From Actinomycetes bacterium (GTDB lineage: Bacteria > Actinomycetota > Acidimicrobiia > Acidimicrobiales > Microtrichaceae), in the NCBI GenBank assembly GCA_030621865.1, contig JAUXGW010000003.1, forward strand, positions 1 to 40,066: 40,066 nucleotides of DNA, given 5' to 3'. The position numbers were made by a program, and so were the translations under genes. Each line of letters starts with the position of its first letter. Within the stretch, counting starts at the first letter, position 1. The notes under the pieces are model-generated. The model worked only from the letters and a program-made list of their open reading frames with translations, did no database searches and had not been told where the DNA came from. Shown piece by piece: positions 13,679 through 22,974 of the stretch.

Positions 13679-14776
13679 TCAGGAAACCTGTACGGGCATG
13701 AGTACGTAGAGGAACTCGCTGGAACTGGTGGAACGAAGCACCGCCGCCGTCTTTTCGTTGACGATGTCGAGTGTGACTTCATCGCCGGTAGTCGCATCAA
13801 GGCCGTCCAGAAGGAAATTGCCGTTGAAAGCGAGTGTGATCTCATCGGCCTCACCCTCAAATCTGGCATCCAGCACTTCGGCTGCTTCGCCGACGTCGCG
13901 GTTGATGGTGTGAATCTTCAGCCCATCGGCATCCATTGACAACCGCACCGGGCTGTTCTCACCGGCCATCAACTTCACCCTGTCAACTGCCCGGGAAAGT
14001 TCCTCGCGGCCGGTGGTGAGTCGATTCGGAGTGTCGTTAGGAATCACGGACTCATAAGGCGGATAGGCCTCCACCATCAATCCAGTGGTGAGGCTCACAA
14101 CTCCAGTGTGGAACGTGACGTCACTGGCTCCCAGAATGAGAGTGGTTTCCTCGTCCGAGTGGAGCATTCTCCCCAGTTCACCCAGTGCCCTTGAAGGGAC
14201 CAGAACCTTCTGGCCCTCATCGAGAACGGTCGTTCCCGGCAGGGCCCGCACTGCCAAGCGATAAGAGTCGGTGGAAACCAGCTTCAGGCCAGTTTCCTCA
14301 GCCGACATCAAGACACCAGTCAGTGCACCTCGCGCCTCATCGGTGGATGCTGCGCGGACCACCTGCTTGAGAGCGTCGCTCAGTTGCTGGGTATCCACAA
14401 CCACCGATTCACCCTCGGCAGTCGAGGGAACTGCATACTCGTGGCTCGGCATCGACCTCATCGAGAATTCCGAGCGGCCACCGCTGATCCTGGGATCGCC
14501 ATCGGACGCGTCGACTTCGACGGCTCCGCTCGGCAGCTTGCGGACAATGTCCAGAGCCAGCTTGGCCGGCAAGATCACCACGCCATCTGACTCACCGGCA
14601 ACCTGGATGTCACTCGAGATCGTGAGATGTTCATCGCGACCGGTCACCTGCAGTGAGTCACCGGACAGCTCAAGGCGCAGCCCGGACATCATTGCGTTGC
14701 TGGCTCGACCCGTGGCCGCCCTGCTCGAATTGGCAAGGGCTTCGACGAGTACGTCCCTTTCACACCTGAATTTCAC
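13679..14776 (-). CDS. dnaN: DNA polymerase III beta sliding clamp
   Basis: 365 aa; MKFRCERDVLVEALANSSRA...; C-terminal FLYVLMPVQVS; position in recF-dnaN-dnaA cluster. Confidence 0.97.
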   Translation of the reverse strand: MKFRCERDVLVEALANSSRAATGRASNAMMSGLRLELSGDSLQVTGRDEHLTISSDIQVAGESDGVVILPAKLALDIVRKLPSGAVEVDASDGDPRISGGRSEFSMRSMPSHEYAVPSTAEGESVVVDTQQLSDALKQVVRAASTDEARGALTGVLMSAEETGLKLVSTDSYRLAVRALPGTTVLDEGQKVLVPSRALGELGRMLHSDEETTLILGASDVTFHTGVVSLTTGLMVEAYPPYESVIPNDTPNRLTTGREELSRAVDRVKLMAGENSPVRLSMDADGLKIHTINRDVGEAAEVLDARFEGEADEITLAFNGNFLLDGLDATTGDEVTLDIVNEKTAAVLRSTSSSEFLYVLMPVQVS

Positions 14777-14824
14777 CGTGATTCACTTTCCCCATCTACT
14801 GATACTCATTGGGTGTAAATCTTC

Positions 14825-14858
14825 AGTAGTAGTAGTTGGCACTGTGGATTGTGGAGAA
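14825..14858 (-). promoter_or_regulatory. candidate DnaA-trio unwinding element with adjacent DnaA boxes
   Basis: Minus strand TTCTCCACAATCCACAGTGCCAACTACTACTACT: two DnaA-like boxes, short spacer, four ACT/AGT triplets. Confidence 0.6.
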
Positions 14859-15043
14859 CATAGCGCGCGCCAAGTGTCCGTAGGGCCGCAGTGTCCCCAA
14901 GTTGTCCACCGTTTCCCATCTCATGCTTGTAATTACACGAATGTCTGTGCACAAGCAACTTTTGTGATCCGGAGATCAACATCGCGACCTCGCTCCCCTC
15001 AACATCGCGATCCACCTCCCAAGACCTCTCAGGGCGACGTTTT

Positions 15044-15118
15044 CCACAACGAGAGGGTCCACAACGAGAGGGTCCACAACCGGGGCGGCCATAACCGGGG
15101 CGGCCATAACCGGAGCCG
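15044..15118. repeat. five-unit 15-bp direct repeat array at oriC
   Basis: CCACAACGAGAGGGT x2, CCACAACCGGGGCGG, CCATAACCGGGGCGG, CCATAACCGGAGCCG, contiguous, non-coding. Confidence 0.95.
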
Positions 15119-15140
15119 CTTGACCTGAGGCGACAGGTAC

Positions 15141-16589
15141 TCATTGGTCGGCGCGAATCCGTTGTATGAGCGAAGTCACGTCCTCGTAGGTTTCGCGCCG
15201 ATCCTTGATCTGTTCGGTGATCTTGTCGTAGGCGTGGATCACTGTGGTGTGATCCCGACCACCGAACTCCTTGCCGATCTGGGGATAGGAAAGATCTGTG
15301 AGTTCGCGGCAGACGTACATGCAGATCTGTCTGGCATGCACGAGATCACGGGTCCGACTCTTGCTCTGCAGTCGATCGAGAGGAATCGCAAACATTTCCG
15401 ATGTGGCGTCAAGAATGATTGCCGCCGTGATCGGACGATCCTTCGTTGAGCTGAGCATGTCGCCCAGGACTTTCTGAGCCAGATCCACGGTGAGTTCGGT
15501 GTCGTACAGACCAGCGTATGCCTCAACGCGAATGAGTGCGCCCTCGAGTTCTCGAATGTTGATAGTGATGTTTGTTGCAATGAACTCGAGTACTTCAGGC
15601 GGCACGTTGGATCCGGTCCGTCCCATCTTCTTCTGGAGGATCGCCAGGCGCGTCTCGAAGTCCGGAGGCTGGATGTCGGTGATCAGGCCCATCTTGAACC
15701 GGCTCCGGAGACGATCCTCCAGGGTGGCAATCGCATCCGGAGGACGGTCGGACGACAACACGATCTGACGTTGTGCATCGTGGAGCGTGTTGAAGGTGTG
15801 GAAGAACTCTTCCTGGAGCTGTTCCTTGCCTTCCATGAACTGAATGTCATCGACGAGGAGGACATCTATGTCGCGGTACCGCTGCTTGAACTCTGGCTGC
15901 GTGTTCTTGCGAATCGATTCCACGAATTCGTTCATCATGGTTTCGGCAGAGATGTATCGAACCTGATAGCTCGGGTAATTCTCCGCGACGTAGCTGGCGA
16001 TCGACTGCAGGAGATGAGTCTTGCCAAGCCCCGCGCCGCCGTAGACGAACAGCGGGTTGTAGCTGCGTGCCGGCGTTTCGGCAACCCGCAACGCCGCAGC
16101 GTGCGCAAAGCGGTTCGACGGGCCGATGACGAAGGAATCGAATGTGTAGCGTTTTGTGCCCTGCAGAGTCGAGTCCCCACTGATCTGGTCCTGGGTGGAA
16201 ACCCGACGCGATCCAGCGAGCTGCGAGACTGCATCAGCTGGCTGGTTCAGCCCGGCCTCCGTCCCAGCTTCTCCTGTCTCGGCTTCGCCATTTGAATCCG
16301 GTTGTGCTGCAACATCGTGTGTTGAGGGTTCGCGAGGCGCGGGCTGCGACACCTCGAAAAGGGCTGTTATCTCAGCGTGCCCCGAGTCTTCAAGCACCGC
16401 GTCGAGCAGACCGAGGTAACGCTGTTCGATTCGCTGCCGAAGGAGTTGACTGGGCACAGCCAACACCAGCGAACCGTCATCAACTCCAACCACGCGGACG
16501 TCCTGGAAGGTGGAGTTCCAGACGGCGTCGCTGACCTGTTCGCGCAGGTTTTCGGAGACCCTGCTCCAAATCGCTTCGCCGTCTTCCAC
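15141..16589 (-). CDS. dnaA: chromosomal replication initiator DnaA
   Basis: FVYGGAGLGKTHLLQSI, VLLVDDIQFMEGKEQLQEEFFHTFN, SYPQIGKEFGGRDHTTVIHAYDKI; GTG at 16589 preceded by GGAGGA is preferred over the ATG at 16679. Confidence 0.96.
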   Translation of the reverse strand: MEDGEAIWSRVSENLREQVSDAVWNSTFQDVRVVGVDDGSLVLAVPSQLLRQRIEQRYLGLLDAVLEDSGHAEITALFEVSQPAPREPSTHDVAAQPDSNGEAETGEAGTEAGLNQPADAVSQLAGSRRVSTQDQISGDSTLQGTKRYTFDSFVIGPSNRFAHAAALRVAETPARSYNPLFVYGGAGLGKTHLLQSIASYVAENYPSYQVRYISAETMMNEFVESIRKNTQPEFKQRYRDIDVLLVDDIQFMEGKEQLQEEFFHTFNTLHDAQRQIVLSSDRPPDAIATLEDRLRSRFKMGLITDIQPPDFETRLAILQKKMGRTGSNVPPEVLEFIATNITINIRELEGALIRVEAYAGLYDTELTVDLAQKVLGDMLSSTKDRPITAAIILDATSEMFAIPLDRLQSKSRTRDLVHARQICMYVCRELTDLSYPQIGKEFGGRDHTTVIHAYDKITEQIKDRRETYEDVTSLIQRIRADQ

Positions 16590-16625
16590 TCGCTCGTCCT
16601 CCGGATTTCTCTGGGTGCCTACCAG

Positions 16626-16656
16626 TAATCCACAGCTGATCCACATCTGTGGAAAA
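16626..16656. promoter_or_regulatory. cluster of three DnaA boxes upstream of dnaA
   Basis: TAATCCACA (16626-16634), TGATCCACA (16637-16645), TGTGGAAAA (16648-16656). Confidence 0.7.
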
Positions 16657-17026
16657 CTCTGGGATCCTCGGAAGGACATGTTGTGTCTGGCATACAGGCC
16701 TACATTGGCGCCTGTCGGAACCTAATCACAGTTCGGCGTCGCTTCAACCGATAACGCGTCTCAGGGTGATTCACATGGTCAAAAACGTCATGAATGCTGC
16801 AAGCGGCACTATATGTGGTCGGTCTGGGCCAATGCGGTGCTCAGGGTGGTTGGCATGGATTCTCCGGGTGCTCTAGGTTTGTGACACCGGTTCGGTTTCC
16901 CGGGGGAGCCGACCGCACAGACACAACTTCCGGCGCACCCTGCTTTCGTGCGACTGTCTGTTCACAACAAGTCAGACCCCGCCCATTCGGACCAGGTGGT
17001 CCCAGTCAATTCGTGGAGTTCCAACC

Positions 17027-22952: not shown

Positions 22953-22974
22953 GTTATCCACAGACGTGGATAAC
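22953..22974. promoter_or_regulatory. inverted pair of consensus DnaA boxes (perfect 9-bp inverted repeat, 4-nt spacer)
   Basis: GTTATCCAC-AGAC-GTGGATAAC; contains TTATCCACA (22954-22962). Confidence 0.75.

Follow-up and report, generated by a model that had tools for sequence, protein, structure and literature searches.

A 40,066-nucleotide stretch of a genome assigned by DnaA searches to the Microthrixaceae (Acidimicrobiia), referred to here as the window, contains five adjacent 15-bp direct repeats between dnaA and dnaN. The original prediction likened these repeats to an iteron array and proposed that they serve either as a graded low-affinity DnaA array or as the site of an origin-binding regulator. 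This raises the question of whether the array is a working part of the origin or a recent duplication within the origin spacer.

Position and coding status of the array

The five units, which are not assigned to a strand, start at 15044, 15059, 15074, 15089, and 15104 and run without interruption to 15118, with every unit reading as originally quoted. Comparison of the array with itself at a lag of 15 bp gave matches at 52 of 60 positions, versus 32 for the best of 2000 dinucleotide-preserving shuffles of the spacer, and no other five-copy tandem repeat of any period from 8 to 60 in the whole window is as strong. Tandem Repeats Finder (TRF) returned the array as two overlapping period-15 rows. 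The host assembly is a draft of 412 contigs, and 75 imperfectly repeated bases are unlikely to be an assembly artefact.

The array lies within the 364-bp spacer between dnaA (15141-16679, minus strand) and dnaN (13679-14776, minus strand), with 22 bp separating its end from the dnaA stop codon, in agreement with its predicted placement at the dnaA-proximal end of oriC. The minimum of the cumulative GC skew falls within a few kilobases. Two open reading frames cross the array, one of 112 codons (14806-15144, minus strand) and one of 285 codons on the plus strand. We rejected a coding role for the 112-codon frame; as it is cut by a stop codon in the congener and has no counterpart in the translated relatives, the description of the array as non-coding stands. 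The array was also correctly set apart from the melting region, as its units are GC-rich and the DnaA-trios are located approximately 210 bp away at 14824-14835.

Distribution of the array among relatives

The spacer could be read in 57 genomes, comprising the window, its single congener, and 55 others of the order, and each has dnaA next to dnaN. The DnaA of the congener is 88% identical to that of the window, and in a DnaA tree the two are joined with support of 100/100 while array-free relatives fall outside. Alignment of the two spacers is continuous save for one clean gap of 60 bp, equal to four units, and the insert coincides exactly with a DnaA box: TTTTCCACA and the array in the window correspond to a lone perfect box, TTGTCCACA, in the congener, which lacks the array. 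A tandem scan at periods of 8 to 40 revealed no 15-bp array of this strength in the 56 other spacers, including that of the congener, and every other strong array recovered was built from a different unit, repeated at 22/23 bp. The original prediction had named absence from close relatives, together with a lack of DnaA binding, as what would count against it, and for unit length and number the comparative half of this is what we observed.

Searches beyond the spacer gave a similar picture. In the genome of the window, a three-unit pattern is matched exactly at the array and nowhere else, and single-unit near-matches are scattered and no commoner than those of a reversed control. Across 33 genomes of the family, the three-unit pattern with at most two mismatches found no second such array at any origin, and its scattered non-origin matches occurred at a rate comparable to that of the reversed control.

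The array occupies an outer zone, defined as the interval from the dnaA stop codon to the first GGGAGNNNGRTCGCG element, which ranges from 6 to 120 bp across relatives, is longest in the window, and is freely variable in sequence as well. Identity to the congener is 57% in this zone versus 92% in the rest of the spacer. Because it is located in a zone of free length, the array is not among the parts of the origin that stay constant. Judged by these sequence comparisons the array is not a conserved origin module, and the proposed iteron-like or regulator-binding module finds no counterpart in the congener or the other relatives.

DnaA-box content and origin of the array

The DnaA box of high-GC actinobacteria is TT(G/C)TCCACA (PMC4285127). 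Scored against TT(A/G/C)TCCACA, the in-register sites along the array carry 1, 2, 2, 4, and 4 mismatches, all on the plus strand. The first, TTTTCCACA (15040-15048), overlaps unit 1 and is the counterpart of the perfect box of the congener; the next two, both GGGTCCACA, span the junctions of units 1 and 2 (15055-15063) and of units 2 and 3 (15070-15078); and the last two are GCGGCCATA stretches in the same register (15085-15108) from which the DnaA core has been lost. Thus, only three of the five units carry a TCCACA core, and at two of these the core is flanked by GGG instead of TT. It is possible that the array offers DnaA one site of moderate strength and two weak ones, while its last two units, having lost the core, probably bind no DnaA. 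Neighbouring units differ at 0, 5, 1, and 2 positions along the array, and divergence grows with the distance between units. Variable columns make up 1 of 7 in the CCAYAAC half and 6 of 8 in the rest of the unit (Fisher p = 0.04, for a block picked post hoc and units that are not independent), which could reflect some selection on the box-like half.

We put at roughly three in four the probability that the array arose recently in this species' lineage, when the sequence surrounding one outer DnaA box was duplicated in tandem, and that its role is neutral or at most weakly accessory. A 15-bp stretch around the single outer box beside the dnaA stop codon would have been copied head to tail, presumably by replication slippage or unequal exchange. 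Several lines of evidence point this way: the clean gap relative to a congener whose spacer otherwise aligns, the lack of such an array in the 56 other readable spacers and the single exact occurrence of the three-unit pattern in its own genome, the contrast in identity between outer zone and core, the position of array-free relatives outside the fully supported pair in the DnaA tree, and the graded divergence along the array, as expected from successive duplications. Copy-number change also appears habitual on the dnaA side of the spacer, where a 23-bp element is present in two or three copies. Three spacers (L008, L009, and L012) belong to genomes with nearly identical DnaA yet differ in carrying two or three copies of this element, which on sequence grounds is a recent copy-number change at an origin. 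As all outgroups lack the array, a gain in this lineage is likelier than a loss in the congener, a polarity that depends on a single congener. The duplicated units may be neutral or, at most, offer DnaA as many as three weak, box-like binding sites (15040, 15055, and 15070) outside the origin core, and such binding could slightly shift the titration of DnaA near oriC.

The strongest competing explanation, which we nevertheless regard as unlikely, is that TTTTCCACA serves as the entry site from which DnaA extends cooperatively over a graded series of low-affinity units, giving the species its own initiation timing. Three box-like sites in one orientation, at an exact 15-bp pitch and with a falling match (1, 2, and 2 mismatches), would suit such a role, and outer-zone boxes occur in a few relatives above the level of shuffled sequence (3 versus 0.25 expected). 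However, the congener and all other relatives lack the array, the core is gone from units 4 and 5, with four mismatches each, and the 15-bp pitch leaves gaps of 6 bp between 9-mers, whereas cooperative DnaA arrays of Escherichia coli have gaps of exactly 2 bp, a spacing that puts DnaA on one face of the helix (PMC4451416), and DnaA pairs of Thermotoga maritima likewise bind best at 2 bp (PMC10316083). Far less probable is an iteron-like site for another origin-binding regulator, which would read CCAYAAC every 15 bp; although this is the better-kept half of the unit, the array is found in no relative, its own genome holds no second exact copy and only scattered single-unit near-matches at or below the reversed control, and a regulator array confined to one species is itself unlikely. 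We give slightly less weight still to a 3′ structure in the dnaA transcript that would act as a terminator or attenuator, as the GC-rich complementary stretches permit hairpins on the transcribed strand but fold little better than shuffles (z = -1.0), with no terminator-like site and no Rfam match. A single-strand DNA structure at the array was likewise rejected (z = 0.06).

Two further groups of box-type sites were observed in the window. At 16626-16656, where the dnaA frame begins as called, a direct repeat of two copies of ATCCACAGCTG is accompanied by TTTTCCACA on the other strand; these are possible dnaA promoter boxes, and for this reason translation of dnaA probably begins deeper inside the frame. 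Approximately 8 kb from oriC, a perfect DnaA box, TTATCCACA, and an inverted TTATCCACG lie 2 bp apart at 22954-22973.

The likely working origin and its likeness to known systems

The working origin is likely dnaN-proximal, composed of a DnaA box pair and DnaA-trios at 14824-14858. The published rule for a basal unwinding system calls for three or more DnaA-trios no further than 16 bp from a DnaA box (PMC8287927), and it is this segment, not the array, that has them: the tandem boxes TTCTCCACA and CAATCCACA (14843-14858, minus strand) lie 7 bp apart beside the trios CAG TAG TAG TAG (14824-14835, plus strand), the predicted unwinding start under that rule, with three TAG trios and a 7-bp spacer to CAATCCACA. 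The pair CCACAATCCACA leads into CTACTACTAC, which gives the TAG trios when read on the opposite strand. Most spacers of the order have these two boxes overlapping at the 7-bp pitch (CCACAATCCACA).

A common, fixed origin core is shared by 25 genomes, which group as a single clade in the DnaA tree with support of 100/100. The distance from the box pair to dnaN is 78-82 bp throughout this clade, and an inverted DnaA-type box, sometimes degenerate, lies 44/45 bp from the pair in all 25 members; in the window it is the degenerate GTGTCCCCA (14891-14899, plus strand). A palindrome, TGTAATTACA (TGNAATTNCA; 14928-14937, no strand assigned), is located 80/81 bp from the pair wherever relatives have retained it, with AATT in 17 of the 25 and AATC in an eighteenth. 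In some relatives the palindrome TGNAATTNCA has matching changes on both arms (TGTAATTACA, TGAAATTTCA, and TGGAATTCCA).

Next to the array, and no part of it, lie two GGGAGNNNGRTCGCGA elements of a clade-wide 22/23-bp repeat, the first at 15005-15020 and the second, 23 bp from it and 134 bp from the box pair, at 14982-14997, both on the minus strand. This GGGAGNNNGRTCGCG repeat (14982-15020) has two to four copies in the clade, 67 bp apart in some species, and a relaxed form of the element is present in all 25 clade members but was not seen in the order's other spacers. The culturable Microthrixaceae strain IMCC26207 has the 23-bp repeat at its origin and no 15-bp array. Its last copy lies 134-136 bp from the box pair, or 145-146 bp, approximately one helical turn more, in a subclade of six; the palindrome is missing in the subclade with the longer spacing. 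The GGGAG..TCGCG pair of the window is 100% identical to that of the congener over 54 bp. Together, the 22/23-bp pitch, the constant spacing from the box pair, and this identity suggest that the GGGAGNNNGRTCGCG repeat is a candidate site for an origin-binding protein. The strict pattern has three copies in its own genome, two of them in this spacer, and GGGAG..TCGCG sites outside oriC gave no lead to a regulon, those that could be placed falling in long open frames. Tentatively, and at a little under even odds, origins of this Microthrixaceae clade may be built on a fixed ruler in which a candidate clade-specific origin protein binds the GGGAGNNNGRTCGCG repeat, while the outer side, with its 15-bp array, can lengthen freely through tandem duplication.

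A limited literature search found no studies of origin structure for the class Acidimicrobiia, and the comparison exposes in this class a strictly spaced, clade-wide origin element without a known binding protein. It also indicates that a repeat can stand out within oriC without contributing to its function, as comparison with one close relative sets a recent duplication apart from the conserved core.

Among known systems, the segment at 14824-14858 resembles the basal unwinding system of Bacillus subtilis, predicted in most bacteria, in its tandem boxes, short spacer, and TAG trios on the expected strand, whereas the array, some 185 bp from the box pair, is no part of such a system. Like the low-affinity arrays of E. 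coli oriC (R5M-tau2-I1-I2 and C3-C2-I3-C1), the array has several DnaA-box-like sites in a row facing the same direction, but the E. coli sites are spaced by 2-bp gaps and flanked by high-affinity boxes, while the array of the window has 6-bp gaps, two units without a core, and no conservation. Plasmid iterons are likewise short direct repeats at an origin, and an iteron array would be expected to keep its unit length and number in close relatives; here neither is kept, the array being absent from the congener and the 55 other spacers, and the origin is a chromosomal dnaA-dnaN spacer. With variable tandem repeats (minisatellites or VNTRs), the array shares head-to-tail copies, graded divergence, and presence in one species and not the next, as the four-unit gap relative to the congener reveals, and it differs from them in sitting inside an origin spacer and including a DnaA box.
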